Positions 4,742 through 40,498 of a DNA stretch of 64,000 nucleotides are shown one piece after another. The translations under genes were made by a program, and so were the position numbers. Source of the DNA: Armatimonadetes bacterium DC (GTDB taxonomy: Bacteria > Armatimonadota > Fimbriimonadia > Fimbriimonadales > GBS-DC); the NCBI GenBank assembly GCA_001442985.1, contig LDYB01000023.1:186001-250000 (forward strand), given 5' to 3'. Below the pieces are notes generated by a model, which searched no databases, was not told the DNA's origin, and saw only the letters and a list, made by a program, of their open reading frames with translations. Each line of letters opens with the position of its first letter. The stretch's first letter is position 1.

Positions 4742-4745
<4 letters not shown>

Positions 4746-6019
4746 ACCAGCGGCGTCTTGCCCGGCTGGGGCACGGGGTCTACCGCCATCGGACCAAAGG
4801 CGAACCGCTCGGCGCGCTCTAGGTAGTTCTCTTTGGAGTTGAGCGCCTGCTCCCAGGTTACCTCTTTCCCCGTGTACGCCGCCATGCGCCCCATAATCGC
4901 GCTCAGCGTGCTTTCAGTCACGGCGCGGGTCTCGTTAATCGGCTTGCCGTCCCGAATGCTCTGAATCAGATGCACATGCTCCTGCAGGTAGGGGTTCGTG
5001 CGTGTGCCGCTGTAGCGCCATTCGGTCTCGCCGAAAATCGCGCCGCTGGGGTCGGCAGTGCCTTTTGTGCCCACAACCCATTCGCCAATCCGGTTGGCGC
5101 AGCCGTCAATCTGGCGGCACATGCTCAGCACGCGCACGCCACCGGGGTACTCAAACTCGATGGCGAAGTGGTCGTAGATGTGTCCATACACGGGGTCGGT
5201 GCGCACCTGACGCCCGCCAACGCCCATCGCCTTGACGGGATGCGCCTGAAGCACCCAGTTAATCACATCGATGTTATGGATGTGCTGTTCCACGATATGG
5301 TCGCCCGAGAGCCATGTGAAATAGAGCCAGTTGCGCAGTTGCCACTCGGTATCCGTCCAGTCGGGCTGGCGGTCGACATGCCACAGCCCGCCCTGATTCC
5401 AGTAGCAGTAGCCCGCCACAATCTTGCCGATGGCGCCCTCCTGCAGGCGTTTGATGGTCTCGCGATAGGCAAAGTCGTGGCGACGCTGTGTGCCCGCGAC
5501 CACCGAAAGCCCTTTCTGGGACGCCACCTCGCCCATCTCGAGCATCAGGCGCACGCCCGTCGGGCACACCGCCACGGGCTTCTCCATAAATACATGCTTG
5601 CCAGCCTCCACCGCGGCTTTGAAGTGGATTGGACGGAACGCAGGCGGAGTCGCCAGAATCACGATGTCCACCCCGCTGGCGATAACCCCCTTGTAAGCGT
5701 CCACCCCTGTGAAGCAACGGTCGTTGGAGACATTGAACATCTCGTTGCCCAGCGGCTCCAGGAGCTTTTTGCTGGCTTCGAGGCGGTCGGGGAAGATGTC
5801 GCCCATCGCGTAGATTTCCACACCTTTGGCGGCGAACACGGCGTCGCGCGCCGCGCCCGTGCCGCGCCCGCCGCAGCCAATCAACCCCACCCGCAAGCGG
5901 TCCGAACCCTGCGCGTGGGCATATGCATGCACAGGCAGCCCTGTCGCCAGTCCACCAATTACCACACCTGCGGACGCTTTGATAAACTCGCGTCGGCTCA
6001 TCCGAATCGGCTCGTTCAT
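4742..6019 (-). CDS. Gfo/Idh/MocA-family oxidoreductase with Tat signal
   Basis: 425 residues. The N-terminus has a twin-arginine signal (SRREFIKAS, Arg 9-10, then a hydrophobic stretch ending near AYAHA), so the protein is exported folded. The Rossmann fold starts at VGLIGCGGRGTG (44-55) and the family motif MEKPVA is at 145-150, placing NAD(P) binding and the catalytic Lys as in the family. The C-terminal region (HIHNIDVINWVLQAHPVKAMG, GGVRVLSMCRQ) is the usual substrate domain. Tat-exported members are common in Planctomycetes, Armatimonadota and related phyla, and are thought to oxidise sugars or polyols with bound cofactor. Substrate cannot be told. Confidence 0.9.
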
Positions 6020-6064: not shown

Positions 6065-6090
6065 CTGCTACAGGGGCACGGAAGTCCACA
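6065..6090 (+). repeat. 26-bp direct repeat, left copy
   Basis: Identical over 26 bp, in the same orientation, to 7173-7198. The right copy is the last codons and stop of the AEC transporter gene; this left copy is a detached duplicate of that gene end. Together the copies bracket the methyltransferase segment. Confidence 0.9.
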
Positions 6091-6125
6091 GAAGCACCTG
6101 CTCGCGGGGTATACTTCAACTGCCT

Positions 6126-6992
6126 ATGTTTGACACGCAGGCGACGGAATCCACCAAAGTCGGCTACAAGTCGGTTATTGATCTGGGGCGGGAAGCAAGC
6201 GTGCCCTTTCCACACAATCTTGCCGAGTATCCTACCAAAATCCTGCCGCAGGTGATGGGCGCCTTCGTCGAGCGCCTCAGCGAACCGAACGAGTTGGTGG
6301 TAGACCCCTTCGCAGGGGGCGGTACCGTTGCGGTGGAGTGTGCCTTGCGGGGGCGGCGCTCAATCAACATCGACATCAATCCGCAGGCGTTGGCGGTCGC
6401 CCAGAAGAAGCTCAAGGCGCTGGTCGGTTCCCTCTTTGCGGAGCCACCCCGAATTGCGGATCAGCTCCTGATTCTGGGGGACGCGCGTGCCCTGCCGCTT
6501 GCTTCCGAAACCGCCGATGCGGTTGTTACGGATATTCCCTACGCTGACATGATTCGCTATTCCAGCCTGCCGAATGACCTCAGCACCATTGAGGACTACG
6601 ACACCTTCCTTATGGAACTTGGGCACGCCTTTGAAGAGGTAAAGCGTATCCTCAAGCCAAACCGTTATGTCGCCATCTTCGTGGCAGATTACCGTATCGC
6701 GCGATCGCGCCTGATTTTGCCCCTGCATGCCGATGTAATTGGGCTGATGCAGGAACGCGGGTTTGAGTTGTTCGACCTCTATGTGTGGCGCTATTATCGT
6801 TCTGGCGGGTTCCGCCCGTTCGGTGCGAAGCCGTATCAGGCAATGAATGTGCATTCGTATGTGCTGGTCTTCTTCAAACCTGCAACACCCCGTGAGCGAC
6901 TCATCAAAAACCGACCTGTGCGGTATCGTCCCAAGCTGGTGGAAAAACTGCAGAAGGTAAATGGAACCCCTTCTATATCACGCCGATTCTGA
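6126..6992 (+). CDS. Solitary DNA methyltransferase in a direct-repeat-bounded segment
   Basis: 288 residues from ATG 6126. A -10 TATACT at 6110-6115 lies 10 nt before it with no ribosome site, so it is probably leaderless; a longer upstream frame exists but lacks a promoter. SAM-binding motif I is VVDPFAGGGT (58-67), the acidic loop INIDINP is at 80-86, GDAR is at 118-121, and the catalytic tetrapeptide region reads VTDIPYAD (134-141). Ile replaces the first Pro of the usual (D/N/S)PP(Y/F). The C-terminal part SYVLVFFKP closes a class I methyltransferase fold. Probably an N6-adenine or N4-cytosine DNA methylase. An RNA or other nucleic-acid target is possible given the DIPY variant. No nuclease partner is adjacent. 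Confidence 0.8.
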   Translation: MFDTQATESTKVGYKSVIDLGREASVPFPHNLAEYPTKILPQVMGAFVERLSEPNELVVDPFAGGGTVAVECALRGRRSINIDINPQALAVAQKKLKALVGSLFAEPPRIADQLLILGDARALPLASETADAVVTDIPYADMIRYSSLPNDLSTIEDYDTFLMELGHAFEEVKRILKPNRYVAIFVADYRIARSRLILPLHADVIGLMQERGFELFDLYVWRYYRSGGFRPFGAKPYQAMNVHSYVLVFFKPATPRERLIKNRPVRYRPKLVEKLQKVNGTPSISRRF

Positions 6993-7156
6993 TTGGCTAC
7001 AAAACCGCCCGCGGTGTTTCGAGCGTTGCAGGGTCTCGTTTCACGCTCCCTCTTCCTCCTGGTGCTGCTGATGCGACCTTGGAGGTTATTGTTGAGCCGT
7101 TGAAAATTCTGCGATATCGCTACGATTTTTCGGTCGGGAACATCATCCTCTTTTAA
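6896..7156 (+). pseudogene. Frame-displaced C-terminal coding remnant, unidentified
   Basis: An open frame with no usable start runs from 6896, overlapping the end of the methyltransferase in another frame, to a TAA at 7154-7156. From about 6959 it reads like genuine protein: KWNPFYITPILIGYKTARG, then a Pro-rich turn, then LEVIVEPLKILRYRYDFSVG and a hydrophobic end. Codon usage is gene-like. It may be the 3' end of a gene cut by arrival of the methyltransferase, or the true C-terminus of the methyltransferase lost by a -1/+1 frameshift near 6950. I do not recognise the family. Confidence 0.4.
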
Positions 7157-7172
7157 GAGGGCTGGCCAGCCA

Positions 7173-7198
7173 CTGCTACAGGGGCACGGAAGTCCACA
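7173..7198 (+). repeat. 26-bp direct repeat, right copy
   Basis: Identical to 6065-6090. It contains the stop codon and last six sense codons of the minus-strand AEC transporter. A GCTGGCCAGC palindrome lies just left of it (7161-7170). Confidence 0.9.
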
Positions 7199-8105
7199 AC
7201 GGCAACAGCGCCAGCGCCACAGGCACCGACACCACCACCAGCGACGCCGCCAACTCCGCGTCGGTCTGGTAATACGCAGCATAGACCGCGCTGACCATCA
7301 CGGTCGGCATCGCGCTCTGGAGCAACACGGAACGCGCCAGCCCTTCAGGCAGCCCGCTCAGCAGCAGCCAGCCCAGCGTGAAAAGCGGCGCCGCCACGCA
7401 TTTGTACGCCACAATCAGCAACAGGGCGCGCCAGCGGTTGCCCAGCGCCCGCCAGCGGATCATCGCGCCAATCGCAATCAGCGCCAGCGGTACAGTAATC
7501 TGACCCAGAGTCTCCAGCGTAAACAGAACAGGTTGGGGGATAGGTATCGAGAGAAGCGCTGTGAGATAGCCCAGCAAAGTCGCCCAGAACACAGGCATCG
7601 AAGCCACCCGTTTCAGCCCTTCGGTGAGGCTTGTGCGCTCGCCCTTTGCGCCTGCCGCCGCCAGCAAACTCAACCCCAGCGTATGCACCAGCAACGCCGT
7701 GACGCCCATATCGAAGGTCACCGCACTGGCGATGCGCTGGGGGTCGCCCTCATAGAGCGCCGCGATCAGGGGCGTGCCCAGAAACCCCGTATTGCCCAGC
7801 GTGCCGCCCACCATCAGAATCGCGCGTGTGCTGGGGCGCAGGCGGAGCAGATGCCCCAGCAGCCACGCCAGCCCCAGCGCCCCCAGCGTGCTGACAAGTC
7901 CCACACCCCAAACGCCCAGCAAGCTCGGGGACACGGAAGATTTCGCTAATGCGCTGAACACCAGTGCAGAAAGCGGCACCCGCACAATCCACGGCACCAG
8001 CCAGTGAATATGGGCATCAGCAATCCAGCCCACACGGCGAATCACGGCGCCCAGCCCCAACAGGGCGAAAAACATCGTCAGGTACTGGGCAAGCGCGCCG
8101 TTCAC
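7176..8105 (-). CDS. AEC-family (auxin efflux carrier-like) transporter
   Basis: 309 residues, almost all hydrophobic, with about ten membrane helices in two inverted halves. The segments PWIVRVPLSALVFSALA and VGGTLGNTGFLGTPLIAALY (the unwound, Asn/Gly-containing region of helix 4) are typical of bacterial AEC carriers, as is LLQSAMPTVMVSAVYAAYY in the second half. Bacterial members export small organic acids or other metabolites; no substrate can be assigned. It is third in an operon with prfB and a nucleotidase-domain gene, 6 nt downstream of the latter. Its last codons form one of the 26-bp direct repeats. Confidence 0.85.
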   Translation of the reverse strand: MNGALAQYLTMFFALLGLGAVIRRVGWIADAHIHWLVPWIVRVPLSALVFSALAKSSVSPSLLGVWGVGLVSTLGALGLAWLLGHLLRLRPSTRAILMVGGTLGNTGFLGTPLIAALYEGDPQRIASAVTFDMGVTALLVHTLGLSLLAAAGAKGERTSLTEGLKRVASMPVFWATLLGYLTALLSIPIPQPVLFTLETLGQITVPLALIAIGAMIRWRALGNRWRALLLIVAYKCVAAPLFTLGWLLLSGLPEGLARSVLLQSAMPTVMVSAVYAAYYQTDAELAASLVVVSVPVALALLPLWTSVPL

Positions 8106-36251: not shown

Positions 36252-37676
36252 CTACAGGCTTTCCCAGAGCGCTTGCACAATCGCGTCCTGCAGGGCGCGC
36301 GCCTCGCTTGCCGACACCGTATAGAAGTTCATCACGATGGAAAACGCCACCGTGCGCCCCGAACGACAGACGAGATACCCCGACAGGCTGCTGACCCGAT
36401 AGAGACTGCCTGTCTTGGCGAAGCCTTTGCCCTGCACGGGGGTATTGCGCAGGCGGTTGCGGAGCGTGCCGTCTTCGCCGTAGATGGGGAGCGAACGGCG
36501 ATAGGCTTCGGCATACGGGGAGCGCGCCATGTAGACCAGCAGGCGCACCAGATTTTCGGGGCTGATAGCGTTCATACGCGACAGCCCGGAGCCGTCCACC
36601 ATCTGCACCGCGCCCATCTCCAGCCCGGCGGAGCGCAAAAACTCCATCAGCACGCGAATGCCCGCCGCGGTCGTGCCCTCGCCTGCTCGCTCCTTGCCGA
36701 TGACCTTAAGCACCATCTCGGTGAGCAGGTTATCGCTGGGCTTGTTGATGAGGGCAACGATTTCGCTCATGGGTGGTGAGAGATGGGTGGCAATCCGTGT
36801 CGCGTTGGGGTGTAGCGCCAGCACCGTGGGCGCCAGTTCCGCTGGGACGCTGACCCCCGCTTCCTGAAGCGCCTGCCGAAACAGCCACGCCGCGTAGCGT
36901 GAGGGGTTCTCCACTGCATAGCGTCCCACCAGCACCTCCTGAGCGTCTTCAGCGATTGTGCCCGTGAGGATAATCTGATTGCGGGCGCGGAGTCGGGTGG
37001 CGCTCAAAGCGGTATTCGGCGTACCTTTAGGCACGGTACGCGCGAGATTGATAACCTGCACATAGTCCGTGGGGGGGTCCAGCCGCACTTGTGGGGGTTC
37101 ACCCCCTTTTTCGGCGGGGCGGGCGTACAGTCGGACAGCGTTGCGCTCGGCGCAGAGCGCACTCATCTGCGCCTGATAGCCGAACGGCTCATCGTCAATA
37201 TTCCAGCCGAAGCCGTAGCGCTCGGCGTCCAGCCAGGTGTCGTCGTACAGCAGGCGCCCCTCCACGCGCCGAATGCCTGCCTCGCGCACCTGTTGCGCCA
37301 GTTTTTGCAGGTCGCTGTAGATCAGACTCGCGTCGCCCTTGCCCACCAGAATCAAATCGCCTTTCAGCACGCCATCGGCGTCCACCGTGCCGTGGCGCCA
37401 GACCTCCGTGCGCAGGCGATAATCGGCTCCCAGCAGTGCCAGCGCGCCCGCCGTAACAAGCAGTTTGTTGTTGGATGCGGGAATCAGCACCCGCTCGGCA
37501 TCGCGCTGATAGAGCGTTTCGCCCGTTTGCAGGTCGCGCACCACAATCCCGCAGTAGCCGAAGCGGAGCCAGTCGGCAGTGAGGAGTTTGTTGAGCGAGT
37601 CGGCGAGTGTGCTGGGCTGGGCGGCGAGCGCACTCCACACTAAAAGCCAGCCAAGCCAGAGGGCGCGTCGGGTCAT
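36252..37676 (-). CDS. dacB: D-alanyl-D-alanine carboxypeptidase/endopeptidase (PBP4 type)
   Basis: 474 residues, family S13. Signal peptide 1-20. The active-site triad is SNNK (in IPASNNKLLVTAG), SDN (KPSDNLLTEMVL) and KTG (FAKTGSLYRVSS). These enzymes trim or cut peptidoglycan peptides in the periplasm. The family insert between SxxK and SDN is present. It ends 36 nt upstream of the SLBB gene start on the same strand, so both may be co-transcribed. Confidence 0.94.
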   Translation of the reverse strand: MTRRALWLGWLLVWSALAAQPSTLADSLNKLLTADWLRFGYCGIVVRDLQTGETLYQRDAERVLIPASNNKLLVTAGALALLGADYRLRTEVWRHGTVDADGVLKGDLILVGKGDASLIYSDLQKLAQQVREAGIRRVEGRLLYDDTWLDAERYGFGWNIDDEPFGYQAQMSALCAERNAVRLYARPAEKGGEPPQVRLDPPTDYVQVINLARTVPKGTPNTALSATRLRARNQIILTGTIAEDAQEVLVGRYAVENPSRYAAWLFRQALQEAGVSVPAELAPTVLALHPNATRIATHLSPPMSEIVALINKPSDNLLTEMVLKVIGKERAGEGTTAAGIRVLMEFLRSAGLEMGAVQMVDGSGLSRMNAISPENLVRLLVYMARSPYAEAYRRSLPIYGEDGTLRNRLRNTPVQGKGFAKTGSLYRVSSLSGYLVCRSGRTVAFSIVMNFYTVSASEARALQDAIVQALWESL

Positions 37677-37759
37677 GGGGAACAGTTTTCTGCCCGTGGG
37701 GGCAAGCTCCTGCTATGCTTTATCGCTTCTACCTGCGCCCTTCTCAAGCTTCCAATCCT

Positions 37760-37927
37760 GGAACCCTGCCCGCATTTTTGCAGTCATATGAGTGCCAGTT
37801 CTTTTCGGAGATTATCGCATTCAGCACAGGAGGAGGAACGATGAAGATGCGGGGAATACGCACTTTTTTCAGAGTGTTTCTGAGGGCATCGGCTCTGCTG
37901 CTCATCACAGCCACAAGCTGGTCGCAG
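37760..37927 (+). repeat. 168-bp duplicated leader and signal-peptide block, copy 1
   Basis: Matches 39191-39358 with only two differences that I see. It spans 81 bp of untranslated leader, the ribosome site GGAGGAGG, and the codons for the signal peptide of the first HAF protein. Confidence 0.9.
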
Positions 37928-39091
37928 ACTCTAATCTGGCTGGGCGTGCTTCCTGGCTACCAACGCGGCACGGCTACTGATGTTTCCGCAGACGGCACGG
38001 TTATCATTGGCTTCTCGTACGATCCCACCATCAGTGGGAATCGTCGTGCTTTTCGCTGGACACGAGCGGAAGGCATACAAGACCTCGGCACCCTTGGAGG
38101 GACGCAGAGCGCAGCGTATAATATTTCACTGGATGGCACGGTGGTCGTCGGTTGGGCCCACAACGCCGACGGATACCTCCGCGCCTTCCGCTGGACGCCA
38201 ACGCAGGGCATGCAAGACCTTGGCACCCTCGGCGGTAACGAAAGCGCGGCGTTTGGGATCTCTGCCGATAGCACGGTTATCGTTGGCTATGCCCACAACG
38301 CCGACGGATACCTCCGCGCCTTCCGCTGGACGCCAACGCAGGGCATGCAAGACCTTGGCACCCTCGGCGGTAACGAAAGCGCGGCGTTTGGGGTCTCTGC
38401 CGATGGCACGGTTATCGTTGGCTATGCCCACAACACCAACGGACACCGCCGCGCCTTCCGCTGGACGCAAGAGACGGGGCTGCAGGAAATCCCTAATGCG
38501 TTCGGCGGCAGGGAGAGCATATGTTATAGTGCTTCGGCGAACGGCACAGTGGTCGTCGGTCAGGCGCGCAATGCCAGTGGGGACTGGCGTGCATTTCGCT
38601 GGACGCCGGAAGAAGGAGTGCAAGATCTCGGTACACCCGGACTCACATGGAGCTGGGGGCAGGATGTTTCAGCAGACGGTACAGTGGTCGTCGGCTATGT
38701 CTACGATCGAAATGAGCCCCTCAACCGATATATTGCCTTTCGCTGGACGCAAGGGATGGGAGCGGATAATTTGAGTCTCAGCTACGGTAGTCTGCTTACA
38801 GATGGCTCGCTGCTGATTATAGCCAACGCTCTCAGCCCCGATGGGCGCTACATCGTGGGGGAGGGCTACAACGCGACGGCGCAGCGGTACATGCCATTTT
38901 TGCTGGACACCTGGCGCACGGGCGATACCAACGGCGACGGCTGTATTGACGACACCGACCTGCTAAAGGTGCTCTTTGCGTTCGGCACCCCAGGCACTGG
39001 CTACACCCGCCACGAGGACATCAATAAAGATGGCATCGTGGACGACGCCGACTTGCTGATAGTGCTGTTCCACTTCGACAGTGGATGTTAG
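37841..39091 (+). CDS. HAF-repeat secreted protein with dockerin-like tail, paralog 1
   Basis: 416 residues from ATG 37841 (GGAGGAGG 5 nt upstream). Signal peptide about 1-29 (to TSWSQ). Seven or so repeats of about 45 residues follow, each with DLGTLGG...SADGTVVVGxAxN...RAFRWT, the 'extracellular repeat, HAF' pattern. Two repeats at 38156-38425 are almost identical in DNA. The end carries the dockerin pair (DTNGDGCIDDTDLL / DINKDGIVDDADLL) and finishes DSGC. Predicted beta-propeller-like surface protein. The gene 36% downstream in the pair is its paralog. Confidence 0.85.
   Translation: MKMRGIRTFFRVFLRASALLLITATSWSQTLIWLGVLPGYQRGTATDVSADGTVIIGFSYDPTISGNRRAFRWTRAEGIQDLGTLGGTQSAAYNISLDGTVVVGWAHNADGYLRAFRWTPTQGMQDLGTLGGNESAAFGISADSTVIVGYAHNADGYLRAFRWTPTQGMQDLGTLGGNESAAFGVSADGTVIVGYAHNTNGHRRAFRWTQETGLQEIPNAFGGRESICYSASANGTVVVGQARNASGDWRAFRWTPEEGVQDLGTPGLTWSWGQDVSADGTVVVGYVYDRNEPLNRYIAFRWTQGMGADNLSLSYGSLLTDGSLLIIANALSPDGRYIVGEGYNATAQRYMPFLLDTWRTGDTNGDGCIDDTDLLKVLFAFGTPGTGYTRHEDINKDGIVDDADLLIVLFHFDSGC
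38156..38425 (+). repeat. Tandem 135-bp repeat inside HAF gene 1
   Basis: Two adjacent 135-bp (45-codon) copies, 38156-38290 and 38291-38425, differ at only a few positions; a diverged third begins at 38426. Confidence 0.9.
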
Positions 39092-39190
39092 ATTGCTTAC
39101 GGACTTCTCTGCCTGAACCAGCAGGGTGGGCTAAGAAGTACTCCTGGCAGGGGCACATCACAGGGCGCTCCTGCCAAGCTTTTACTGTTG

Positions 39191-39358
39191 GGAACCCTGC
39201 CCGCATTTTTGCAGTCATATGAGTGCCAGTTCTTTTCGGAGATTATCGCATTCAGCACAGGAGGAGGAACGATGAAGATGCGGGGAATGCGCACTTTTTT
39301 CAGAGCGTTTCTGAGGGCATCGGCTCTGCTGCTCATCACAGCCACAAGCTGGTCGCAG
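39191..39358 (+). repeat. 168-bp duplicated leader and signal-peptide block, copy 2
   Basis: Copy of 37760-37927, offset 1431 bp. It includes the leader and signal peptide of the second HAF gene. The promoter presumably lies within or before it. Confidence 0.9.
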
Positions 39359-40498
39359 TCCATCACCTGGCTTGGCACGCTCGATGGCGTTGCCAGCTGG
39401 GCAAGTAGCGTTTCGGCAGATGGCACAGTGGTCGTTGGTGGGATACTCAGCTCCAGTAATCGGTTGCATGCCTTTCGCTGGACCGCGGCAAGGGGGATGC
39501 GATACATGGGCGATTTCGGAGGTGGCGAGAGCTGGGCTAGCGATGTTTCGGCAGACGGTTCCGTGGTTGTTGGCGAAGCCCTTGCCCCCAATGGTCGGCG
39601 GCATGCCTTCCGCTGGACACAGGCGGGGGGAATGCGAAGCATCCTTGCGCTCGGCAGTACCGAAAGCTATGCTGAAGCCACTTCAGCGGATGGCTCCGTT
39701 ATTGTTGGCGCCGCGTATATCCGCCATTACATCGCCTTTCGTTGGACCACAGCGGGAGTTCTGCAGGACCTTGGCAGACTTCCTGGAGGTGGCATCAGCT
39801 GGGCTTTTGGAGTTTCTGAGGATGGCTCCGTAGTCGTCGGTGCCGCACGCAACGCCAGCGATCTGTGGCGTGCCTTCCGCTGGACAGCGACAACCGGAAT
39901 GCAGGAACTCGGTACGCTCGGCGGCGATGAAAGCTGGGCTGAAGCCGTTTCGGCAGACGGCTCTGTGGTGGTGGGCAGGGCACGCAACGCCAGCGGTCAG
40001 TGGCGTGCCTTCCGCTGGACAGCGACAACCGGAATGCAGGAACTCGGTACGCTCGGCGGCGACGAAAGCTGGGCTGAAGCCGTTTCGGCAGACGGCTCTG
40101 TGGTGGTGGGTAGGGCACGCAACGCCAGCGGCCAGTGGCGTGCCTTCCGCTGGACGCAGGCTGGGGAGATGGAAGACCTGAACCAGACCTACGCCAGTCT
40201 GCTCACCAGCAACTCGTATCTCAAGGTAGCCTCTGCGCTTAGCCCCGACGGACGATACATCGTGGGTTGGGGCTTCAACGCAGCAACTGGACACGAAGAA
40301 ACATTCCTGTTAGACACCTGGCGCACGGGCGATACCAACGGCGACGGCTGTATTGACGACTCGGACTTGCTTGCCGTGTTGTTCGCCTTCGGCACCCCAG
40401 GCACTGGCTACACCCGCCACGAGGACATCAATAAAGACGGCATCGTGGACGACGCCGACTTGCTGATAGTGCTGTCCAACTTCGGTAGTGGGTGTTAG
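39272..40498 (+). CDS. HAF-repeat secreted protein with dockerin-like tail, paralog 2
   Basis: 408 residues from ATG 39272 (GGAGGAGG 5 nt upstream). Signal peptide nearly identical to that of paralog 1, then HAF repeats (SADGSVVVGRARNASGQWRA and similar, RAFRWT). Two DNA-level 135-bp copies lie at 39881-40150. The dockerin tail (DTNGDGCIDDSDLL / INKDGIVDDADLL) ends GSGC. The repeats differ from those of paralog 1 while both ends are almost the same, so ends are homogenised or recently exchanged. An intrinsic terminator follows. Confidence 0.85.
   Translation: MKMRGMRTFFRAFLRASALLLITATSWSQSITWLGTLDGVASWASSVSADGTVVVGGILSSSNRLHAFRWTAARGMRYMGDFGGGESWASDVSADGSVVVGEALAPNGRRHAFRWTQAGGMRSILALGSTESYAEATSADGSVIVGAAYIRHYIAFRWTTAGVLQDLGRLPGGGISWAFGVSEDGSVVVGAARNASDLWRAFRWTATTGMQELGTLGGDESWAEAVSADGSVVVGRARNASGQWRAFRWTATTGMQELGTLGGDESWAEAVSADGSVVVGRARNASGQWRAFRWTQAGEMEDLNQTYASLLTSNSYLKVASALSPDGRYIVGWGFNAATGHEETFLLDTWRTGDTNGDGCIDDSDLLAVLFAFGTPGTGYTRHEDINKDGIVDDADLLIVLSNFGSGC
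39881..40150 (+). repeat. Tandem 135-bp repeat inside HAF gene 2
   Basis: Copies 39881-40015 and 40016-40150 differ at about three positions. Same period as in HAF gene 1 but a different sequence. Confidence 0.9.

Follow-up and report, generated by a model that had tools for sequence, protein, structure and literature searches.

How does a single DNA methyltransferase gene come to lie between two perfect copies of a 26-bp sequence, one of which is the very end of the neighbouring gene? The arrangement occurs in the window analysed here, a 64,000-nucleotide stretch of Armatimonadetes bacterium DC (contig LDYB01000023.1; G000:C23:186001-250000, with G000 denoting the 2.85-Mb source genome), in which the methyltransferase gene (M) and its flanking repeats adjoin a gene for an auxin efflux carrier-type (AEC) transporter. 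The history that we consider probable is that a type II restriction-modification (R-M) unit inserted into the 3' end of the transporter gene with duplication of 26 bp of the target, and that its restriction endonuclease gene (R) was then lost by one deletion.

The two copies of the repeat (CTGCTACAGGGGCACGGAAGTCCACA) lie on the same strand and are identical at 26/26 bases, with identity stopping sharply at either edge of both. The right copy comprises two bases of a Leu codon, the final six codons of the AEC gene (WTSVPL), the TAG stop and 3 bp more. In the first 30 kb of the window no direct repeat at spacings of up to 3 kb is longer than this pair; once the left copy is taken out the maximum falls to 16 bp, and in 60 Markov simulations it was 12-16 bp. 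The 26-bp repeat is thus far above chance expectation. Counted across the 2.85-Mb genome with up to three mismatches allowed, the 26-mer occurs at these two places and at none beyond them. The unique DNA between the copies (6091-7172, 1082 bp) is fully accounted for by a 35-bp leader, M, a scar of R and 16 bp, and its guanine-plus-cytosine content (55.9%, versus 60.5% for the window) is among the lowest 4% of segments. An earlier note on this DNA had described identical, co-oriented repeats, the right one being the last codons and stop of the AEC gene, around about 1.08 kb that held a solitary methyltransferase and a coding remnant and no integrase or transposase. All of this holds, with the remnant now identified as the 3' end of R, and the genome search that it proposed for further copies excludes a common dispersed repeat.

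To trace the remnant, which lies in the reading frame 6959-7156, its 65 residues were used as a search query. Besides itself, weak matches were obtained in two genomes, G011 and G004, about 1 kb downstream of the orthologous M. The matching stretches are the homologous C-termini of open reading frames (ORFs) that directly follow M on the same strand, of 320 aa in G011 (L089:5025-5987) and 433 aa in G004 (L087:4878-6179). Both matched the PADLOC REase_II profile (PDLC03582; E 4.7e-7 and 9.7e-17, respectively), and a WOR-3 genome carries, adjoining M, a convergent 416-aa gene with 44% identity. The conserved core of R reads GG(E/D)KSD...(I/V)ELK, a D..ExK motif. A sequence search of R against solved structures gave no match. 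The AlphaFold model of R had a low mean predicted local distance difference test score (47), with most of the C-terminal domain at about 60-85, and for that domain the best PDB match in Foldseek was the nuclease EndoMS (E 6.9e-4). On the modelled fold, R is likely a PD-(D/E)XK endonuclease. Given the REase_II matches, the conserved core and the EndoMS-like fold, the pair of M and R is a type II R-M system. By homology, the coding remnant in the window is assigned to the 3' end of the partner endonuclease gene. The scar is without the D..ExK catalytic motif, and a search of G000 with the C-terminal stretch of R gave no second strong match; R in the window is non-functional.

The junction between M and the scar indicates how the remainder of R may have been removed. 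In G004 the ATG of R overlaps the 3' end of M (GCAAATGGAACTGACAAGCACTGA). At the window junction (GTAAATGGAACCCCTTC), the start context of R, AAATGGAAC, passes straight into the NPF codons of the last ~62 residues of R. A single deletion from about codon 3 of R to its C-terminal stretch, joined at or near GGAAC, would account for this junction. The same deletion appears to have replaced the last residues of M, whose final residues, PSISRRF, derive from the junction.

M itself is intact. It matches Pfam N6_N4_Mtase (PF01555, E 2.5e-20) and keeps the residues that are invariant across nine relatives. Its motif I (DPFAGGGT) stands ahead of motif IV (TDIPY), and the Pfam profile is matched in two pieces. 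M looks circularly permuted relative to the usual beta class, and its first part accordingly aligns with the end of the profile, as expected of that domain order. The leader sequence GGTATACT also directly precedes the methyltransferase start in the sister genome G002; a scan for a sigma-70 consensus pair found none, and the leader may serve as a promoter. M orthologs with 73-80% identity were found in seven genomes of the Fimbriimonadales family. Named relatives that have M are Fimbriimonadales metagenome-assembled genomes and Bacterium HR15. The M tree pairs G000 with G002, G004 with G008, and G007 with G010. The ratio of nonsynonymous to synonymous substitution rates (dN/dS) was ~0.04 for G004/G008 and ~0.14 for G007/G010, neither of the latter having R; in the most divergent pairs dS is saturated. 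M is thus kept under purifying selection. The orphan M of the window is presumably active.

Across eight genomes of one Fimbriimonadales family, the window genome included, a single genome has a full R, another has a shortened one, two retain a scar and four lack R. G004 has the full gene, G011 one with ~100 residues missing in frame, and the window ~62 codons, while G008, G002, G007 and G010 have none. Deletions of R of other kinds occurred in G013, G008 and G011. In G013 (L085:4466-5470), the M ORF continues in frame into the ~19 C-terminal residues that remain of the lost R. The system has a common position beside a TPR gene in G008 and G004, and R loss in G008 therefore occurred in place. 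The eight genomes form a decay series of a type II R-M system in which M persists.

The reading that we favour begins with a compact type II R-M unit, M then R on one strand, which would have inserted into the 3' end of the AEC gene. The insertion would have duplicated 26 bp of the target, so that the transporter kept its last codons, and the fragment was most likely taken up at a break with staggered ends, the single strands of which were then filled in. A later single deletion, from about the R start codon to ~62 codons before the R stop, would have left the intact orphan M; an intact M-R pair probably entered before that deletion. Target duplication is the best reading of the 26 bp: a 26-mer that occurs nowhere else in the genome is matched perfectly on both sides of a compact unit, and the AEC C-terminus has the length usual in its family. 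The repeats hug the M-R unit, with 35 bp separating the left copy from M and 16 bp separating the R stop from the right copy. In relatives, the AEC protein ends a few residues past a conserved Trp (WSTQF, WMGMR, WLKAGL), and the length of the C-terminus in G000 (WTSVPL) is normal by comparison. R-M insertion with long, variable target duplications is known in Helicobacter (Nobusato et al. 2000 and Furuta et al. 2010, as described in PMC3031569, PMC1643837 and PMC4978471). The locus resembles those cases in that an R-M unit without transposase or integrase has on either side a direct repeat that derives from the target; it differs in that its R is deleted, and in that a comparison of two strains showed the insertion in Helicobacter, whereas here it is inferred.

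Several observations weigh against this history. An empty AEC/oxidoreductase site was found in none of the genomes searched (the AEC protein in 61 relatives, the oxidoreductase in the family, and AEC in genome_contigs, where it had no match). The two genes are adjacent only in G000 among these genomes, relatives that have both do not have them as neighbours, and the nearer genera (G001, G002, G003) yielded no AEC match. No convincing target duplication was seen around the system in G002, G013, G008, G004, G007, G011, G010, the WOR-3 locus or a viral contig described below, nor is one visible at a 4.1-kb insert in G011. Finally, a perfect repeat next to a decayed R implies that the insertion was recent, that the deletion was fast, or that R had decayed before insertion.

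The repeat could instead be a by-product of local repair or rearrangement, made by template switching at the AEC 3' end where a breakpoint had joined M-R to AEC and the oxidoreductase. In favour of this reading, the family shows little conservation of gene order, AEC and the oxidoreductase have different neighbours in different relatives, and flanking repeats are present only at the G000 copy of the module. A one-sided breakpoint duplication, however, does not predict close bracketing on both sides, and we regard this origin as rather unlikely.

A remnant of a site-specific integrative element would also leave a short direct repeat that keeps a gene end intact. In this case a larger element would have been integrated by a tyrosine recombinase at an attachment (att) core within the AEC 3' end, with restoration of that end. 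Later deletion of the integrase and cargo would have left attL and attR with M and part of R between them. A length of 26 bp and a preserved gene 3' end are typical of integrative-element att sites, and the G000 genome has four tyrosine recombinase (Phage_integrase) genes. None of the four, however, lies on the 250-kb contig C23, and when the 26-mer was compared with the M borders in ten other loci the best matches were at about chance level. The repeats moreover leave no room for other element genes unless the deletions were exact. Unlike integrative elements that use gene 3' ends, the locus lacks an integrase and wider cargo, and the other copies of the module show no att-like sequence. With no integrase on the contig and no att-like sequence elsewhere, an integrative element is less likely than target duplication, and by itself quite improbable. 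The earlier note had left the 26 bp as either a target duplication or an att-like site, and the evidence favours its first option over its second. Its "small mobile methyltransferase module" does not stand as worded, the locus being a decayed type II R-M system with an R scar; the insertion that it proposed is still the best reading.

We consider it very improbable that the solitary M is itself a minimal transposase-less mobile unit that moves within and between genomes after R loss, by means of an enzyme making ~26-bp duplications. That M was always solitary and the remnant unrelated coding debris is barely credible, as the remnant shares homology with the C-terminal end of the R encoded beside orthologous M, and the R start context is retained at the junction.

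The favoured history, insertion of an R-M unit with target duplication followed by R loss, concerns a system that moves about within the family. The clearest case of insertion is in G011, where 4.1 kb separate two gene 3' ends that abut each other in G004, G007, G008, G010, G012 and G017. This insert (L089:4103-8120) has convergent gene ends at its borders and two R-M-like pairs inside, namely M with the shortened R, and a second N6_N4_Mtase with a DUF6996/DUF6997 protein that has an ExK-like motif. The M/R system sits in differing gene neighbourhoods across the family, which alone is weak evidence of mobility because the family as a whole has a fluid gene order; the genes flanking the module in G002 and G013 are not adjacent in other genomes. 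Short GC-rich tandem units of the GACGCCGACGCTACG type stand beside M (L090:1037-1180), have many copies in G007, G010 and G016, and are dispersed through the genomes of genus g5. A ~100-bp repeat in G013 (L085:5555-6140) is likewise dispersed in many copies. Beyond the family, relatives of the system were found in the WOR-3 genome and in a 170-kb contig of a viral collection. The latter encodes a solitary M ortholog (L099:4974-5804; 66-68% identity) with a terminase-like ORF nearby. Searches of plasmid and phage records returned distant methyltransferases only, and a search for R in viral contigs returned none.

The features of the locus are collected in Table 1. Elsewhere in the window (37607-40498), two adjoining genes have near-identical 5' regions (the 37760/39191 repeat); their proteins contain AFRWT...LGTLGG repeats and a dockerin-like C-terminus, with 135-bp tandem units inside.

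Table 1 Features of the methyltransferase locus and its flanks, in window coordinates.
Feature	Position	Strand	Remarks
GFO/IDH/MocA oxidoreductase gene	4742..6019	-	far side of the putative insertion
Left 26-bp repeat copy	6065..6090	.	45 bp upstream of the oxidoreductase start codon
Leader carried with the module	6091..6125	+	GGTATACT; TATACT at 6110-6115
M, intact N6/N4-type DNA methyltransferase, 288 aa	6126..6992	+	motifs DPFAGGGT and TDIPY
R start-codon relic	6961..6963	+	AAATGGAAC common to the window and G004
R gene 3' scar, ~last 62 codons	6965..7156	+	stop TAA at 7154-7156; frame differs from that of the relic start codon
Spacer, R stop to right repeat	7157..7172	.	16 bp; holds the palindrome GGCTGGCCAGCC
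Right 26-bp repeat copy	7173..7198	.	3' end of the AEC transporter gene
AEC transporter gene (Mem_trans, PF03547)	7176..8105	-	putative target gene

Each step of the proposed history, i.e., insertion, R loss and M retention, is of an already known kind. As in type II R-M systems with a PD-(D/E)XK endonuclease and an N6/N4 methyltransferase that has motif I before motif IV, M and R adjoin and are intact in G004 and WOR-3, whereas in the window R is cut to ~62 codons. Like orphan methyltransferases derived from R-M systems, the locus has an intact M without functional R, and purifying selection is seen in a pair of relatives that lack R; what distinguishes it is that the R scar and the decay series of the family show this origin directly. 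Solitary methyltransferases from degraded R-M systems have been described as rare at the species level (PMC4176335). The locus adds a candidate long target duplication beyond the cited Helicobacter cases, and it offers a clear case from nature of the origin of an orphan methyltransferase, with R deleted, M and its leader kept, and the scar still readable. The persistence of M amid R decay in eight Fimbriimonadales genomes bears on the claimed rarity of such an origin (PMC4176335).
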